Of a stretch of DNA of 64,000 bases, positions 15,711 through 25,285 are shown in pieces. A program made the position numbers and the translations under genes. Origin of the DNA: Lautropia sp. SCN 69-89 (GTDB lineage: Bacteria; Pseudomonadota; Gammaproteobacteria; Burkholderiales; Burkholderiaceae_E); NCBI GenBank assembly GCA_001724855.1, contig MEED01000012.1:124001-188000 (forward strand). Reading direction: 5' to 3'. The notes beneath the pieces are model-generated. The model worked only from the letters and a program-made list of their open reading frames with translations. It made no database searches and was not told where the DNA came from. Every line of letters begins with the position of its first letter. The stretch's first letter is position 1.

Positions 15711-16871
15711 ATGACCGATGCCGGCCTGAGCGAGGAGGAAGTCACTTTCCGCGACAGCGTGCGCGCCTTTGTCGACAAACGCATCGTGCCCGACGCTACG
15801 CGCTGGGACATGGCGGAGCGCTATCCGCGCGAGCTGTTCCTGGAGACGGCCGCGCTCGGCTGGCTCGGCATCGGATTCCCGGAGGATGTCGGGGGCAGCG
15901 GCGGCGGCAGCGTGATGTACGCGATCCTGTGTGCCGAACTTTCGCGCGGCTCGGCGGCGATCGCGCTCGGCCTGTACGTGCACACTGCGCTGGCGGCCTC
16001 GGCGATCCTGCATCTGGGAAGCGCAGAGCAGAAGGCGCGCTATCTTCCCGAGGCGCTAGCCGGAAAACGCATCGGCTGCTGGGGCTACGCCGAGCCTGGT
16101 GCCGGGGCCGACATTGCGTGCGTGCGCACGCGTGCGCGTCGCGAAGGCGAGTACTACGTGCTCGATGGCTCCAAGCTGTACATCACCAATTCCCCATTCG
16201 CGGACTTCATGGTGATCGTCGCGCAGACCGATCCGGCACGCGGTCTCAAGGGTATGTCGGTCTTCGTCGTCGATCGCGACACGCCGGGTGTGCGCGTCAG
16301 TGCCCCGTTCAAGAAGCTCGGCATGGGTGCCTCGGAAATGGCCGAGATCGTCTTCGACGGCGCACGCGTGCCCGTCGGCAACCGCCTGGGCATCGAGCAT
16401 CTTGGCTTCATCGAGGCGCTCAAGGTACTCACGCTCGGGCGTATCGCGTCGGCGGGCTTTGGCGTCGGTCTGGGCCGCGCGGCGCTCGAGGAAGCACTGC
16501 GTTATACTTCCACCCGCATGCAGGGGGAGGCGCCGATCACGCGCCATCAATTCGTGCGTTTCACGCTCGCCGACATGGCGACGCGGCTCGACGCCGCTTG
16601 GCAGCTCACGCTGCACGCGGCGCGCCTCGTAGAGGCCGGCGGCGACTACGACTGCGCCGCCTCGATGGCCAAGCTGTTTGCCACCGAGACCTGCACGCAT
16701 GTCTGCGAACGTGCATTACATTTGTGCGGCGCTCAGGGCTACATGCGCGAGAGCGCGGCACAGCGCTTCTATCGCGACTGCAAGGTGCTCGAGATCGGCG
16801 AGGGCACCAGCGAGATCCAGCGCGAGACGATCTTCAGGCATCTGGCACGGCAGGGCAGCAGATGGGTGTGA
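15711..16871 (+). CDS. Acyl-CoA dehydrogenase
   Basis: GCWGYAEPGAGADIACVRTRA, DGSKLYITNSPFADFMVIVAQTDP, LCGAQGYMRESAAQRFYRDCKVLEIGEGTSEIQ. Confidence 0.93.
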   Translation: MTDAGLSEEEVTFRDSVRAFVDKRIVPDATRWDMAERYPRELFLETAALGWLGIGFPEDVGGSGGGSVMYAILCAELSRGSAAIALGLYVHTALAASAILHLGSAEQKARYLPEALAGKRIGCWGYAEPGAGADIACVRTRARREGEYYVLDGSKLYITNSPFADFMVIVAQTDPARGLKGMSVFVVDRDTPGVRVSAPFKKLGMGASEMAEIVFDGARVPVGNRLGIEHLGFIEALKVLTLGRIASAGFGVGLGRAALEEALRYTSTRMQGEAPITRHQFVRFTLADMATRLDAAWQLTLHAARLVEAGGDYDCAASMAKLFATETCTHVCERALHLCGAQGYMRESAAQRFYRDCKVLEIGEGTSEIQRETIFRHLARQGSRWV

Positions 16872-18621: not shown

Positions 18622-18644
18622 GCGGCGGCGTATCACGCCCCCGG

Positions 18645-18678
18645 GGCACCTTCAGACCCGACACCGGGTCACGGTGCC
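18645..18678. repeat. Hairpin/cruciform-prone inverted repeat downstream of the ADH gene
   Basis: GGCACC-ttca-GACCCG-acac-CGGGTC-ac-GGTGCC: two nested perfect 6-bp arms. No T-tract. Confidence 0.5.
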
Positions 18679-18758
18679 CGGCGCGTCGGAGGTGGCCTGG
18701 GCTCACGATAGCGGCCGCGATCCAACGCAGGCGCAAGGCACGCGACGAGCCGGTGCGG

Positions 18759-18890
18759 ATGGCCCGCTTGCTCATCGCGTTGCTCGACGTGCAGTCGACC
18801 GTCTGGCGCGCCGTGCTGGTTCCAGCAGTGATCCCGCTGGACAAGCTGCACGACGCGATCCAGGCCGTGATGGGGTGGACCGACATTCGT
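18759..18890 (+). pseudogene. 5' fragment of a plasmid pRiA4b ORF-3-like gene (PF07929-type)
   Basis: MRMARLLIALLDVQSTVWRAVLVPAVIPLDKLHDAIQAVMGWTD matches the family N-terminal consensus, then similarity stops. Confidence 0.65.
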
Positions 18891-18953
18891 CATGCAAAGG
18901 TCGATTGGTTCACGGATGGATTCTCACCCCTCGGCAGAGGGGTGGCGTCCATA

Positions 18954-19065
18954 CTATCTTGGTCGGCGATCGCGACACGCCGGACGTGCGCATCAGCGCC
19001 TCGTTCAGGAAGCTCGGCATGGGTGCCTCGGAGATGGCCCGGATCGTCTTCGGCGGCACGCGCTG
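18954..19065 (+). pseudogene. Internal fragment of an acyl-CoA dehydrogenase gene
   Basis: gatcgcgacacgccgg..gtgcgc.tcag..cctcgttcaggaagctcggcatgggtgcctcgga closely matches ~16270-16375 of the intact ACAD in this window. Confidence 0.85.
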
Positions 19066-19170
19066 CCGCGCTCGGTGAGCCGGATCTTCCCGCTTGCCGG
19101 CGTGAACGAAGCACCTGGCTTGCTGGCGAAGAAGGACACCAGCCGGCATCGTCGGGTTTGTCGCCGAGCC
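19066..19170 (+). pseudogene. 3' fragment of an alcohol dehydrogenase gene, fused to the ACAD fragment
   Basis: cgctcggtgagccggatcttcccgcttgccggcgtgaacgaagcacctggcttgctggcgaagaaggacacc closely matches ~18515-18616 of the intact ADH in this window. Confidence 0.85.
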
Positions 19171-19416
19171 AGCAGCCTGGACCGCGGCGCCAGACGTATT
19201 CGCGTCTCCTGGACTCGCTCGGGCCGAGTGCGTCGATGGCCAGACCCGTGAGCTGGTACCACGCGCGACCTCCGGTGCGGTCGTAACCGGCCCCATTGGC
19301 CCCATCGAACCTTCCCGCGGCGGTACTTACTTCATGGCGGTGCCGACCCGATAATGGATCCGGGCAAGCAGCGGATGCGCCGGTTCTCCCGGTGTCGACA
19401 AGACAAGGAGATCCCC

Positions 19417-21126
19417 ATGATGATCCCGCAGTGGTGCAGGTTCGCGATGGCTGCGCTGATGTGCGGCCTGATGCTGGCGGCCGGCGCACGCGCCGACATC
19501 CCCAGGGAAACCTACGATGCACTGAAGCTCGACAAATCGGCCACGCCGAAGCAGTTGTACGAGGCGCTGGTCAAACGCTACAAGGATCCGGCACAGGGTG
19601 CAGGACGTGGTTCCCATGCCAAGTACTGGGAGCCGATTCCCTTCAGCAAGTACCTCGATCCTGAGTCCTTCTACAAGCCGCCGGATTCCGTGAAGGAGGT
19701 CGCGACGCGTGAGCAATGCGTCAAGTGCCACGCCGACGAGTCGCCGGTGTGGGTGAGCGCCTGGAAGAAGAGCGCGCACGCCAATCTCGACAGGATCCGC
19801 AAGCTGACCTCGAACGACGCCACGTTTTACAAGAAGGCCAAGCTCGAGGAGGTCGAGTCCAACCTGCGCTCGCTCGGCAAACTGGGAGCCAACGAGCCGT
19901 TGAAGGAGGTCGGCTGCATCGACTGCCACGTCGACGTGAACGCGAAGAAGAAGGCCGATCACCGCACCGACCTGCGCATGCCCACGGCCGACGTCTGCGC
20001 CACCTGTCACCTGCAGGAATTCGCCGAGCGCGAGTCCGAACGCGACACGCTGACCTGGCCGAAGGATCAGTGGCCCAAGGGTCGCCCGTCGCACGCGCTC
20101 GACTACCAGGCCAACGTGGAAACCACGACCTGGGCCGGCATGCAGCAGCGCGAGATCGCCGAGGGCTGCACGATGTGCCACCAGAACCAGACCAAGTGCG
20201 ACGGCTGCCATACCCGGCACGAGTTCTCGGTGGTCGAGTCGCGCCAACCGCAGGCCTGCGCGATGTGCCACAGCGGGATCGACCACAACAACTGGGAGAA
20301 CTATCAGCTCTCCAAGCACGGCACGAACGTCGCAACCAGAGGCAGCTCCTGGAACTGGAACGTGCCGCTCAAGGACGCGTTCTCCAAAGGCGGGCAGACC
20401 GCGCCGACCTGCCAGACCTGCCACATGGAGTACCAGGGCAAGTACAGCCACAACATGGTGCGCAAGGTGCGCTGGGCGAACTATCCCCGGAATCCCGGCA
20501 TCGCCGAGAACATCGGCAGCGAGTGGTCGGAGAAGCGCCTCGAAGCCTGGGTCAGGACCTGCACCAACTGCCACAGCGAAACCCTGACCCGTTCCTATCT
20601 GGACCTGATGGACAAGGGCACGTTCCAGTCGCTGGCCCTGTACCAGGAAGCGAACAAGGTGGTGCAGAAGCTCTACGACGACAAGCTGCTGCCGGGGCAG
20701 ATCACCAACCGCCCGGCACCGCCGCCGCCCGACGTGGAAGGCCTGGGGCAGTTCTACTCGTTCTTCCTGGCCAAGGGCAACAACCCGGCGCTGGTCGAAG
20801 TCGTGGAGCTCAACATGGGCGAGAACCAGTTGCCCAAGACACACGTTGCGCTGGCGCATGTCAATCCCGGGAACTGGAGTTATTCGGACGGCTACGAGCA
20901 GTTGAACTACATGTACACCAAGATCATGGACGAGGACCTCAAGATCCGGGAGATGGTCGCGTTGAAGGAGCGCGTGGCCAGGCTCGAAACCAGCAAGCGC
21001 ACCAGCCTGCTCGACATCGACAGTTCGGAAACGCTCGCTTCTCTCGGTGGCCTGGGTGGTGCGATGCTGGCCGCCGGTGGCGTCACGCTCGTCGGCTGGC
21101 GACGCCGCGAGAAGGCACGGCGCTGA
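19417..21126 (+). CDS. haoA: Hydroxylamine oxidoreductase, octaheme cytochrome c with C-terminal TM segment
   Basis: Eight CxxCH motifs (CVKCH, CIDCH, CATCH, CTMCH, CDGCH, CAMCH, CQTCH, CTNCH). [45 protein letters not shown] and AERESERDT resemble the Nitrosomonas HAO as I recall it. AAGGAG RBS before ATG 19417. Confidence 0.96.
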
Positions 21127-21141
21127 GGCTGCCGCGATCAC

Positions 21142-22167
21142 ATGGATGCGGTTTTCGCGCGGTGCTCTGTCGGCAGGCTCGTCCTGCCGTCGATGGGCAT
21201 GTCGTTGGTGGCCGCGGGGTTGATCCTGCTCGGGTTGGTGGTGCGCTCGTTCTGGCAACCCGGCGCGGCGCCGTATCGCTACCAGTGGGTGGAGCAGGCT
21301 GGTGTCGAGCGCATCGCCGAGTCCGATCTCCAGGCCTGGCCGGATCTCGCGATCACGAAGGTCGAGATCCGCGCCAGTGGCCTCGACCAGCCGCTCGCCG
21401 TGGGGCAGGTTGCGCGTCGCGGGCAGGGTGCGCCGGTGATGCTCGATTGGGACAACCGAAGCGGCGAACCACTGGTGTTCACCGACACCCGGCTGGGCGA
21501 GTTGAAGACACTGGCGCAGGCGGTCTCGAAACACGCACCGAAAGACGCGCTGTTGCTGGCCTGGTGGGACACCGCACGCCAGTTGCACCTGCTCACCGGG
21601 CTCGACGTTGCCTACGACACGCATCTGCGCGAGCCCTTGATCGCGCCCGCGCCCTGGAGGACGCACGACCGCAGCATCGCGCGCTACGAGCGCGAATTCT
21701 GGGGCGCGCCGCCGAGCAGGGACGATATGCAGCGCTTCGGCCAGTTCGCCGAGGCGCTCGCCAGCGAAGCCGGCCGCGGTGCGGCGATGCTGCGCGCAAT
21801 GGCGGGCGAGCGCGAAGCCTATGTCGTGGTGCACGTCTCCGACCTGTACAAACTGGGCGTGCAGTTCCCGGATCGGTTCGGCGTGGCCTACAAGGACCTG
21901 ACGCTCAGGGGCGACGTCCACGGACAGATCGCGTTCGTCAAGCGCTGGGTGGTGGAACACGACTACGCAGGCTATACGGTGCACGAGCTCTCGCCACAGC
22001 AGGCACGTGCCTACGCCGTGGGCAACGCGCGAACCGCCGCAACGCTGCTCGCGCGGATGCTGCCGCTGAGCACGTCGCAGCCGGCCCAGCTGCAGGTGCT
22101 GGAACTCGTCTACCAGCACGGGGGCTACTGGGTCTACAGGCTCCCCGCCCGGCTGCCTGCGGGCTGA
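21142..22167 (+). CDS. haoB: HaoB, hydroxylamine oxidation-associated membrane-anchored protein
   Basis: Follows haoA; N-terminal TM segment; ALLLAWWDTARQLHLLTGLD..., HLREPLIAPAPW, YEREFWGAP; syntenic position. Confidence 0.88.
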   Translation: MDAVFARCSVGRLVLPSMGMSLVAAGLILLGLVVRSFWQPGAAPYRYQWVEQAGVERIAESDLQAWPDLAITKVEIRASGLDQPLAVGQVARRGQGAPVMLDWDNRSGEPLVFTDTRLGELKTLAQAVSKHAPKDALLLAWWDTARQLHLLTGLDVAYDTHLREPLIAPAPWRTHDRSIARYEREFWGAPPSRDDMQRFGQFAEALASEAGRGAAMLRAMAGEREAYVVVHVSDLYKLGVQFPDRFGVAYKDLTLRGDVHGQIAFVKRWVVEHDYAGYTVHELSPQQARAYAVGNARTAATLLARMLPLSTSQPAQLQVLELVYQHGGYWVYRLPARLPAG

Positions 22168-22263
22168 CGGCGTTGCAGTTCGCCGCCCGCACGCCGCACC
22201 CGACTCATGTCGCTGTCCGACGCCTGCGTAGCGACCGCACCGACCGCCGAGGAGTGGTGATTC

Positions 22264-22968
22264 ATGAAGGTCCGTGTCTCAGCGATGTTGCTTGGCGCTG
22301 CGCTGCTGTGCATGACAGCGGCAGTGGCGCAGCCGAGCTACGAAGGACGCAGGAAATGCAGTTCCTGCCATCGCAGCGAATTCGAGTCGTGGGAGAAATC
22401 GGGTCACGCCAGGGCTCTCGAGACGCTGGCACCGAAGGTGAAGTCCGAGGCGAAGAAGAAGGCCGGGCTGAATCCGGACAAGGATTACCGGCAAGACGGT
22501 GACTGTGTTGGCTGCCACACGACCGGTTGGGGCCGCGAAGGCGGCTACGACCCGAAGGATCCGGGCAAGTATCTGGTGGGCGTCGGCTGCGAGAGCTGCC
22601 ACGGTCCCGGCTCGGAATATCGTCTGCTCCACCGCAAGGCGGGTCAGGCCTTCGAGAAGAAGAAGCAGACCACGGCGCGCGAACGACTCGTCGAGGCAGG
22701 CCAGGAGTTCCAGTTCGAAGAGCGCTGCGCGTCCTGCCATCTGAACTACGAAGGCTCGCCCTGGAAGGGGGCGAAGAAACCCTACACGCCTTTCACGCCC
22801 AGGCTCGACAGGAAGTACACCTTCGACTTCGCCAGGGCCGTGCGCGACGACAAGGCCATCCACGAGCACTTCAAGCTAGAGGGCGTGTTCACCGGGCCGC
22901 CCGTGCCGTCTTTCCACGAGGAGTTCCAGTCCAGGGCCAAACCGGCCGCGAAAGGATCGGAGGAGTGA
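22264..22968 (+). CDS. cycA: Cytochrome c554 (tetraheme)
   Basis: Signal peptide; CSSCH, CVGCH, CESCH, CASCH; YEGRRKCSSCH, GVGCESCHGPGSE and FEERCASCHLNYEGSPWKGAKKPYTPFTP are c554-like. Confidence 0.95.
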   Translation: MKVRVSAMLLGAALLCMTAAVAQPSYEGRRKCSSCHRSEFESWEKSGHARALETLAPKVKSEAKKKAGLNPDKDYRQDGDCVGCHTTGWGREGGYDPKDPGKYLVGVGCESCHGPGSEYRLLHRKAGQAFEKKKQTTARERLVEAGQEFQFEERCASCHLNYEGSPWKGAKKPYTPFTPRLDRKYTFDFARAVRDDKAIHEHFKLEGVFTGPPVPSFHEEFQSRAKPAAKGSEE

Positions 22969-23552
22969 CGCCAGGCGGGTATTCGGGTTGTCCGAAGCGG
23001 GCTGGCGGCGCGCTCGCCCTCGGTGCGGCGGGCATGCTCGGGTTGCTCGTTGCCGTCTTCGGGGGCGAGGCTGCGCTGTCGAGCACCGGGTTCTGCGTGA
23101 GCTGCCACTCGATGAGCTACCCGGCCGAGGAACTGAAGAAGTCCACTCACTACGGTGCGCTGGGCATCAACCCCGGCTGCAAGGACTGCCACATCCCTCA
23201 GGGTCTGGAGAACTTCCATCTCGCCGTGGCCACGCACGTCGTCGACGGGGTGCGCGAACTGGTGCTCGAATTCAGGAACGACTACTCGGACCTCGCGAAG
23301 TTCAACGCCCGGCGCGCGCGGATGGCGTATCACGCGCGCATGAACCTCAAGCGCTGGGACAGCGTCACCTGTCGTACCTGCCACAACGATCCGCAACCGC
23401 CCGGCGCAGACGCCAGGGCCGCGCACGACAAGATGCGCACCGCGAAGGCCACCTGCATCGATTGCCACCAGAACTTGGTGCACAAGGAGGTGCCCGAAAC
23501 CGACCTCGATGCCAGTCTGGCGCAAGGGCGAGAGGTCGCGAAAGCGCAGTGA
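22965..23552 (+). CDS. cycB: Cytochrome cM552, NapC/NirT-family tetraheme quinone reductase
   Basis: GTG start overlapping the cycA stop (GTGA); N-terminal TM segment; CVSCH, CKDCH, CRTCH, CIDCH; FCVSCHSMSYPAEELKKSTHYGALGINPGCKDCHIP. Confidence 0.93.
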   Translation: MTPGGYSGCPKRAGGALALGAAGMLGLLVAVFGGEAALSSTGFCVSCHSMSYPAEELKKSTHYGALGINPGCKDCHIPQGLENFHLAVATHVVDGVRELVLEFRNDYSDLAKFNARRARMAYHARMNLKRWDSVTCRTCHNDPQPPGADARAAHDKMRTAKATCIDCHQNLVHKEVPETDLDASLAQGREVAKAQ

Positions 23553-23575: not shown

Positions 23576-23676
23576 CATCGGGTCACGACACCTTCGGGCA
23601 CCCCGGCGCGGGGACGGTGCAGGCTTTCACGGATTTCGGGTGGTACCAGCCGCAGGGTCGCTACCGGCTCTATGGG

Positions 23677-23752: not shown

Positions 23753-25285
23753 ATGGACATCCCGATCCTGCTCGACCCCCGGAGCCGACATCCCCTGCAA
23801 GGCCAACTCTACGAGCAGGTGCGCCATCTGATCCTCGGTGGGCGCCTGAAGCCCGGCACGTCGCTCGCGTCGAGCCGTGCGCTGGCAACCCTACTCGGCG
23901 TCTCGCGCAACACGGTCATGCTGGCCTACGAGCGGCTGGCGGCCGAGGGCTATCTGCAGATGCGCGAGGGCATCGGCACCTATGTGAGCTTCGAGTTGCC
24001 CGAGGACTGTCTCGCAACCGAGCGCCTCACACCCGCCTGCAGTGACGAGCGTCCGTGCGTGGTGTCGCGCCGTCCGATCGCCTTCGAAGGCCGCGCCCAC
24101 GGGGTCGTGAACGACGGACAGCTGACCTGTGACTTCTGGCTCGGCAGGCCGGATCCGCATTCGTTTCCGATCAGGGCCTGGCGCCGTCTCGTCAATCGCC
24201 GGTTGCTCGGCGCCGGCGCGCGGCTCACGGAGTACGGTGAACCTGCCGGGTTGATCGAACTGCGTCGGGAAATCGCCGAGCGCATCGGCCCGGCGCGTGG
24301 CATCGATGCTGATCCCGAACAGATCATCGTCGTGGGCGGCTGCCAGGAAGGGCTGAACCTGACGGCCCGGCTGCTGCTGCGCGAAGGCGCCGTCGTGGCG
24401 ATCGAGAACCCCGCCTACCAGGGAGCGGCGAATCTGTACGAGAGTTACCGCGCGCGGCTCGTCCCGGTGCGCGTGGACGACAACGGCCTGCGCGTGGCCG
24501 ATCTGCCGGAAGACGGCGTTGTGCTCGCTTACGTGACGCCGTCGCATCAGTATCCGATGGGCTTCACCATGCCGCTCGAGCGGCGCCTGCGTCTGCTCGA
24601 CTGGGCCAGGCGTTTGGGCGCCTACGTCGTCGAGGACGATTACGACAGCGACTTCCGCTACCGCGGCGCGCCATTCCCGGCGCTGATGGGGCTCGATCGC
24701 CACGACAGCGTGATCTACATGGGATCCTTCTCCAAGTCCCTCGGCGCCGGCCTGCGCCTGGGGTATCTGATCGTGCCCAGGCACCTCGTCGGCGCGGCGC
24801 GCACGGCCAAGACCTTGCTCAACAATGGCCACCCCTGGCTCGAGCAGGCAGTGCTGGCGGAGTTCCTCGCCAGCGGCGGGTACGACAACCACCTGCGGCG
24901 CATCCGCAAAAGCTATGCCGAGCGCCGTGACTGCCTCCTCGACTCCCTGAGGTGGTATTTCGGCGAGATCGTCGTCTCCGGGTCGGAGTGCGGCACGCAC
25001 ATCGCCTGGCACTTGGGCGCGAGCCTGCCGCGCGCAACACTCATGCGGTCGCTGGCGGCCGAGCGCGGCGTCGGTCTCCATGACCTGCCCTCCAGTGCAG
25101 CCTGCGACTTCGGCGGTTGCACCTACTCGGAGCGCACGCTTCTCCTCGGCTTCTCGTCGCTGGACGAGCGGCAGATCCGCGGCGGCATCGAGCGCGTTGC
25201 CGCGGCGCTCGACCCGGCACACGGTTCGTTGCGGGGCCTGACGAGGCCGCGTCACCCGCGCCCGACGACGTACGTCGCGCCGTAG
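23753..25285 (+). CDS. MocR/PdxR-type regulator: GntR HTH fused to class I aminotransferase-like PLP domain
   Basis: RHPLQGQLYEQVRHLILGGRLKPGTSLASSRALATLLGVSRNTVMLAYERLAAEGYL; VVEDDYDSDFRY; GSFSKSLGAGLRLGY retains the PLP Lys. Confidence 0.93.
   Translation: MDIPILLDPRSRHPLQGQLYEQVRHLILGGRLKPGTSLASSRALATLLGVSRNTVMLAYERLAAEGYLQMREGIGTYVSFELPEDCLATERLTPACSDERPCVVSRRPIAFEGRAHGVVNDGQLTCDFWLGRPDPHSFPIRAWRRLVNRRLLGAGARLTEYGEPAGLIELRREIAERIGPARGIDADPEQIIVVGGCQEGLNLTARLLLREGAVVAIENPAYQGAANLYESYRARLVPVRVDDNGLRVADLPEDGVVLAYVTPSHQYPMGFTMPLERRLRLLDWARRLGAYVVEDDYDSDFRYRGAPFPALMGLDRHDSVIYMGSFSKSLGAGLRLGYLIVPRHLVGAARTAKTLLNNGHPWLEQAVLAEFLASGGYDNHLRRIRKSYAERRDCLLDSLRWYFGEIVVSGSECGTHIAWHLGASLPRATLMRSLAAERGVGLHDLPSSAACDFGGCTYSERTLLLGFSSLDERQIRGGIERVAAALDPAHGSLRGLTRPRHPRPTTYVAP

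Follow-up and report, generated by a model that had tools for sequence, protein, structure and literature searches.

A MocR-linked hydroxylamine-oxidation module in a Lautropia genome without detectable ammonia monooxygenase genes

Here we examined a 64,000-nucleotide stretch of the genome of the betaproteobacterium Lautropia sp. SCN 69-89 (G000:C12:124001-188000, hereafter the window; genome of 3.81 Mb in 70 contigs, 95.6% complete with 1.1% contamination), in which the hydroxylamine-oxidation genes haoA-haoB-cycA-cycB are followed by mocR, a gene for a transcriptional regulator of the MocR type. We consider it probable that these genes represent an inducible, horizontally moving hydroxylamine-oxidation module placed under a dedicated MocR, in a bacterium devoid of ammonia monooxygenase.

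The four module genes lie on the plus strand and are haoA (19417..21126), encoding an octahaem hydroxylamine oxidoreductase (HAO) of 569 aa; haoB (21142..22167; TIGR04392, 351 bits against a cut-off of 200); cycA (22264..22968), encoding tetrahaem cytochrome c554 (match to PDB 1bvb, 5.5e-88); and cycB (22965..23552; PF03264), encoding a NapC/NirT-type tetrahaem cytochrome that resembles the quinone reductase cM552. With 8, 0, 4 and 4 CxxCH motifs, respectively, and with this order on one strand, they have the make-up of a hydroxylamine:ubiquinone redox module. HaoA aligns end to end with the HAO of Nitrosomonas europaea (PDB 6m0p, 1.8e-259), and its Tyr489, Asp289 and His290 correspond to the P460 cross-link tyrosine Y467 and to Asp267 and His268 of that enzyme, all three being retained in an alignment of 20 out of 20 mocR-linked HaoA proteins. 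The eight haem motifs, the full-length homology and the P460 tyrosine are those of an oxidative octahaem HAO of the N. europaea type. Gaps of only 15 and 96 bp, together with the overlap between the GTG start of cycB at 22965 and the cycA stop, suggest that the four genes form a single operon. Within the order, HaoB is scarce, occurring in 13 of 399 genomes, ten of which belong to a family of ammonia-oxidising bacteria (AOB; family f15). An earlier sequence-only reading of this DNA had recognised the four consecutive same-strand genes, their motif counts and the module type, all of which agree with the profile and structure matches above. Its span of 19354-23552 was right at the end but not at the beginning, as haoA starts at 19417, preceded by AAGGAG, and 19354 is not a start; its four genes stand, but a fifth gene, mocR, and the operator sites were overlooked. 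The chimeric contig or bin that it named as a possible refutation is unlikely, given that the module sits deep within a 262-kb contig and that a 90% identical HaoA is present in another genome of the genus (G014).

Profiles of AmoA, AmoB and AmoC (PF02461, PF04744 and PF04896) found no match in the entire genome, extending to all contigs the earlier statement that the window holds no amo genes; the organism thus lacks the amoCAB set by which an AOB is recognised. The same profiles matched three to five times in a positive control, genome G050 of the same order, which has three clusters each of hao and amo and is presumably a Nitrosospira-like AOB. In those HAO carriers of the same genus and family that were tested, these profiles likewise found nothing, and AmoA was absent from the nearest named relatives too. 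It is very improbable that we are dealing with a nitrifier and that its ammonia monooxygenase either failed to assemble or belongs to an unrecognised type: the genome is 95.6% complete and amo and hao operons bin poorly (PMC9306079), but AmoA is missing from all 18 mocR-linked genomes tested, which span many families, and AmoB and AmoC from those tested for them, while the positive controls match.

Judging by its genes, the organism is nevertheless not a plain heterotroph, because it encodes a full-length RuBisCO (442.7 bits) with a phosphoribulokinase nearby (large subunit and phosphoribulokinase at G000:C20:40475-41395 and L166 12102-12977). The search for RuBisCO had been proposed by the sequence-only reading, whose picture of a heterotroph it does not uphold; genes for transketolase and fructose-bisphosphate aldolase lie in the window, among those for acyl-CoA metabolism and TRAP transport. 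Could the module then serve lithoautotrophic growth on the hydroxylamine of neighbours? RuBisCO was found in eight other genomes tested as well, the route to quinone is complete, and a metagenome-assembled genome (MAG) of the same genus, PRO3, from a partial nitritation-anammox reactor, has Calvin–Benson–Bassham genes (PMC9306079). We nonetheless regard this explanation as somewhat unlikely, since the RuBisCO evidence covers hao carriers and leaves hao-free relatives outside the comparison, hydroxylamine is toxic and scarce, and a dedicated regulator would be more in keeping with occasional use than with a sole source of energy.

The regulator gene mocR (23753..25285, plus strand) encodes 510 aa, in which a GntR winged helix-turn-helix domain (PF00392) is fused to a fold-type-I, aminotransferase-fold pyridoxal phosphate (PLP) domain (PF00155), the architecture of the MocR family. 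In a comparison of neighbourhoods, it was the sole gene from outside the module to turn up repeatedly next to almost all amo-free hao loci. Of the genomes searched for AmoA, mocR is a neighbour of hao in 18 of the 19 that are amo-free and in none of the six that have amo or pmo; two Nitrospira-clade MAGs in which amoA was undetected (G065 and G801) are excluded from this count. It takes four positions in all: after cycB (the window and nine related loci), divergent from haoA (L111, L112, L113 and L115), upstream on the same strand (L086-L089 and L091), and after haoB, on the megaplasmid of Ruegeria pomeroyi. Across 61 related genomes, a MocR of at least 46% identity was present in 8 of 8 amo-free HAO carriers compared to 1 of 53 others, and that single copy is broken. 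The hao-linked MocRs form one clade relative to their paralogues (support 100/99), the exceptions being a MocR from a Jannaschia plasmid and two relics, and their small subclades mirror those of HaoA. MocR is very likely the dedicated regulator of the hao module. Separately, a frameshifted mocR of the hao clade was seen in a genome with no HaoA match (G060; L153 9167-10626), and the region between cycB and mocR gave no signal of RNA structure (z -0.53).

A conserved palindrome accompanies this linkage. In k-mer counts, TGGCACCA occurred upstream of haoA at 13 of 16 loci (0.2 expected), and the palindrome TGGYRCCA was found within 350 bp upstream of haoA at 19 of 20 mocR-linked loci versus 0 of 25 loci without mocR, over a background of 0.05 per 350 bp; a collapsed count (15/16 vs 0/8) still yields p about 1e-5, although related sequences are not independent and the loci used for discovery overlap those counted. 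The window contains just two exact copies, where a Markov model would expect about four scattered anywhere, and these precede haoA at -163 (TGGTACCA, 19254..19261) and mocR at -112 (TGGTACCA, 23641..23648). A second box of haoA, TGGCCCCA (19297..19304, at -120), has one mismatch and lies 43 bp from the first; a spacing of 43-44 bp, about four helical turns, recurs in seven linked loci. TGGYRCCA is thus a candidate operator to which MocR is predicted to bind. A sigma-54 promoter is an unlikely origin of the TGGCAC motif: such a promoter would carry a GC at -12, which shows no conservation here, and the sites form palindromes, often TGGTACCA.

In the mechanism that we propose, HaoA would oxidise hydroxylamine in the periplasm to nitric oxide (NO) and then nitrite, CycA would carry the electrons, and CycB would hand them to quinone. 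The route from HaoA through c554 and CycB to quinone is established for AOB, and the window module would follow it. Hydroxylamine may be supplied externally, for instance by anammox bacteria or by ammonia oxidisers living nearby, or may arise as a by-product of the organism's own nitrogen metabolism. Binding of MocR to TGGYRCCA in front of haoA and mocR would turn on the operon. That HAO instead works in reverse, accompanying denitrification and turning NO into hydroxylamine or ammonium, is quite improbable: the P460 cross-link tyrosine, which is typical of oxidative HAO, is kept in all 20 mocR-linked HaoA proteins, and partners of the N. europaea type, c554 and cM552, are present, even though the reverse reaction has been proposed for Candidatus Desulfobacillus denitrificans (PMC8402940) and PRO3 has a full denitrification set (PMC9306079).

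As for the signal, the most likely candidate is hydroxylamine itself, which MocR may sense through its PLP cofactor. The lysine that would form the Schiff base with PLP, K328 in the window, is present in 19 of 20 hao-linked MocRs and the remaining PLP contacts in all 20, whereas R207 and R430, with which GabR binds the carboxylate, are replaced in all 20, a loss that suits an effector other than an amino acid. Hydroxylamine readily converts the aldehyde of PLP to an oxime, which makes a PLP-bearing MocR without amino-acid-binding arginines a plausible hydroxylamine sensor. In the literature, two MocRs offer precedents for such sensing, namely DnfR, which controls the hydroxylamine-to-N2 cluster of Alcaligenes (PMC12575085, PMC9136411), and MpaR, which responds to cyanide and was proposed to act via PLP-CN (PMC10790758). 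The Alcaligenes dnf (Dirammox) cluster resembles the window locus in that hydroxylamine-handling genes are under a MocR, but its enzymes, DnfABC, are unrelated and yield N2, and it has no HAO. GabR, PdxR and MpaR share the GntR domain and the PLP aminotransferase fold with the window MocR, yet the hao-linked proteins stand apart as a separate, hao-tied clade lacking the carboxylate arginines of GabR. Within the open-access literature searched, subscription papers not being covered, the Alcaligenes system was the only relevant report on a MocR in connection with hydroxylamine or haoA, and hydroxylamine does not figure in the main text of a survey of MocR regulons (PMC5320631). On balance, we judge direct sensing of hydroxylamine by the PLP of MocR to be about as probable as its opposite.

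Alternatively, MocR could be a PLP-supply regulator of the PdxR type, such that hao responds to PLP shortage and hydroxylamine matters only by depleting PLP. The AlphaFold model (pLDDT 74) has GabR and PdxR as its best Foldseek matches, both carboxylate arginines are likewise lost in aligned PdxR, and the NCBIfam PdxR model is matched above its cut-off. We deem this alternative unlikely, as no PLP-synthesis genes were seen among the locus neighbours of mocR (regulon members elsewhere in the genome were outside this search), and both linkage and operator go with hao across many lineages.

Several observations weigh against a dedicated, hydroxylamine-responsive MocR and an oxidative module. The PdxR equivalog score of the regulator, 424.5 bits, exceeds the cut-off of 320, and because of this label it may respond to PLP supply rather than to hydroxylamine. 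In G014, one hao-linked MocR (L020 14187-15653) carries an arginine (FSRS) at the position of the PLP lysine. The MocR of the Jannaschia plasmid belongs to the hao clade with no hao nearby, and the one amo-free genome without a visible mocR, G651, offers only 1.2 kb of sequence beyond haoB on a short contig. The loci from which the operator was discovered overlap those behind the 19 of 20 versus 0 of 25 count, and the Ruegeria hao locus has no operator match. Finally, in Ca. D. denitrificans expression of haoA and haoB was seen but that of the cytochromes was not, and its authors also weigh the reverse reaction (PMC8402940). Separately, G014 holds a second locus, of the haoAB type, with its own mocR.

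The relationship to the modules of ammonia oxidisers was then considered. The Nitrosomonas/Nitrosospira and comammox Nitrospira modules share gene order, haem counts and P460 residues with the window, but where tested, in amo genomes, they have neither an intact mocR nor TGGYRCCA upstream of haoA. The HaoA tree places the sequences of AOB and comammox bacteria in nested positions among those linked to mocR. In a concatenated HaoA-HaoB-CycA-CycB tree, AOB and comammox form a clade (99/98) that is sister to the clade of the window (100/100), with the other mocR-linked modules falling outside both. This nesting is well supported but not final, because a single group holding every full mocR module escaped strict rejection (p-AU 0.084). 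A regulator that was present and then lost is independently supported by Nitrospira sp. palsa_1310, where a mocR pseudogene with stop codons directly follows cycB (L028 14192-14461); amoA was not found in this MAG. On the simplest reading, ammonia oxidisers would have had mocR at first and lost it later, and the two methanotrophs examined would have lost it in a separate event. Tree and pseudogene also suggest that in these lineages hydroxylamine oxidation may have been an inducible trait in its own right before becoming coupled to ammonia oxidation. The combined proposal, that the hao-linked MocR senses hydroxylamine directly through a PLP oxime and that MocR-controlled inducible modules of non-ammonia-oxidisers were the ancestral source of the AOB and comammox Nitrospira module, with the regulator lost once hydroxylamine became a constant internal intermediate, is one that we put forward only tentatively.

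Horizontal acquisition, also suggested by the sequence-only reading, gains support as regards mobility. The flank upstream of the window module matches G014 at 90% up to 18633, shortly beyond an alcohol dehydrogenase gene, while the G014 module lies on another contig among other neighbours. At the homologous site after the alcohol dehydrogenase gene, genome G009 has no hao but a truncated, inverted mocR relic (L152 9608-10696, G009:C1) whose nearest relative is the window's own mocR; it is apparently what remains of a lost module, and a different module of hao genes is present at another place in G009. The HaoA proteins of the genus occupy four separate places in the tree. Taken together, the differing site in G014, the relic in G009 and the scattered HaoA types would mean that modules were repeatedly gained and lost. 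Deviation in GC content is too weak to prove transfer (about 63-68% in the module vs 66-72% in the flanks), and broad mobility on plasmids was not borne out, since in PLSDB only Ruegeria has a plasmid-borne HaoB. Between the alcohol dehydrogenase gene and haoA lies a mosaic of gene fragments (18634-19189) that looks like a recombination scar, comprising a fragment of a PRiA4_ORF3-like gene (18753-18956), a 107-nt piece of an acyl-CoA dehydrogenase gene (87% to 16261-16367) and a copy of the 3' end of the alcohol dehydrogenase gene (19055-19143).

That hao occurs without amo is not new in this group, as Ca. D. denitrificans and PRO3 have already been described, a point that the sequence-only reading had missed. 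The former is a betaproteobacterial denitrifier of an anammox reactor whose genome has a Calvin-cycle route; its haoA-haoB-c554-cytochrome c genes (DSYM_27790-27820) keep the same order as in the window and its HaoA clusters with AOB, and the text available from that report mentions neither an adjacent MocR nor an operator (PMC8402940). PRO3 appears to be G014; its two haoA paralogues find their closest relative in Lautropia SCN 69-89, MAGs of its type were assigned no amoA, and regulator, operator and module synteny go unmentioned in the available part of the source (PMC9306079). Consistently, G014 has two hao loci. HAO in amo-free bacteria is usually ascribed to detoxification or heterotrophic nitrification with no means of testing this; given a dedicated regulator and a defined operator, the role becomes testable through the response of the promoter to hydroxylamine. 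If the sensing proposed here holds, MocR would provide a hydroxylamine biosensor, and PLP would act as a trap for small nucleophiles, a principle common to DnfR and MpaR.

A further related locus is haoA-haoB-MocR-ccmF of the R. pomeroyi megaplasmid, which shares HAO, HaoB and an adjacent hao-clade MocR with the window but differs in having no cycA or cycB and a MocR of only 42% identity. Two further features of gene arrangement were observed. In one groundwater betaproteobacterial MAG, an insertion of ~4.4 kb separates haoB from cycA (L023 12744-17140). In addition, genes for cytochrome c maturation, among them CcmF, CcmH and CcmB, are found repeatedly in the vicinity of hao loci that lack amo (L021, L022, L025, L086, L087 and L102), and such genes also stand beside the hao locus of Ruegeria.

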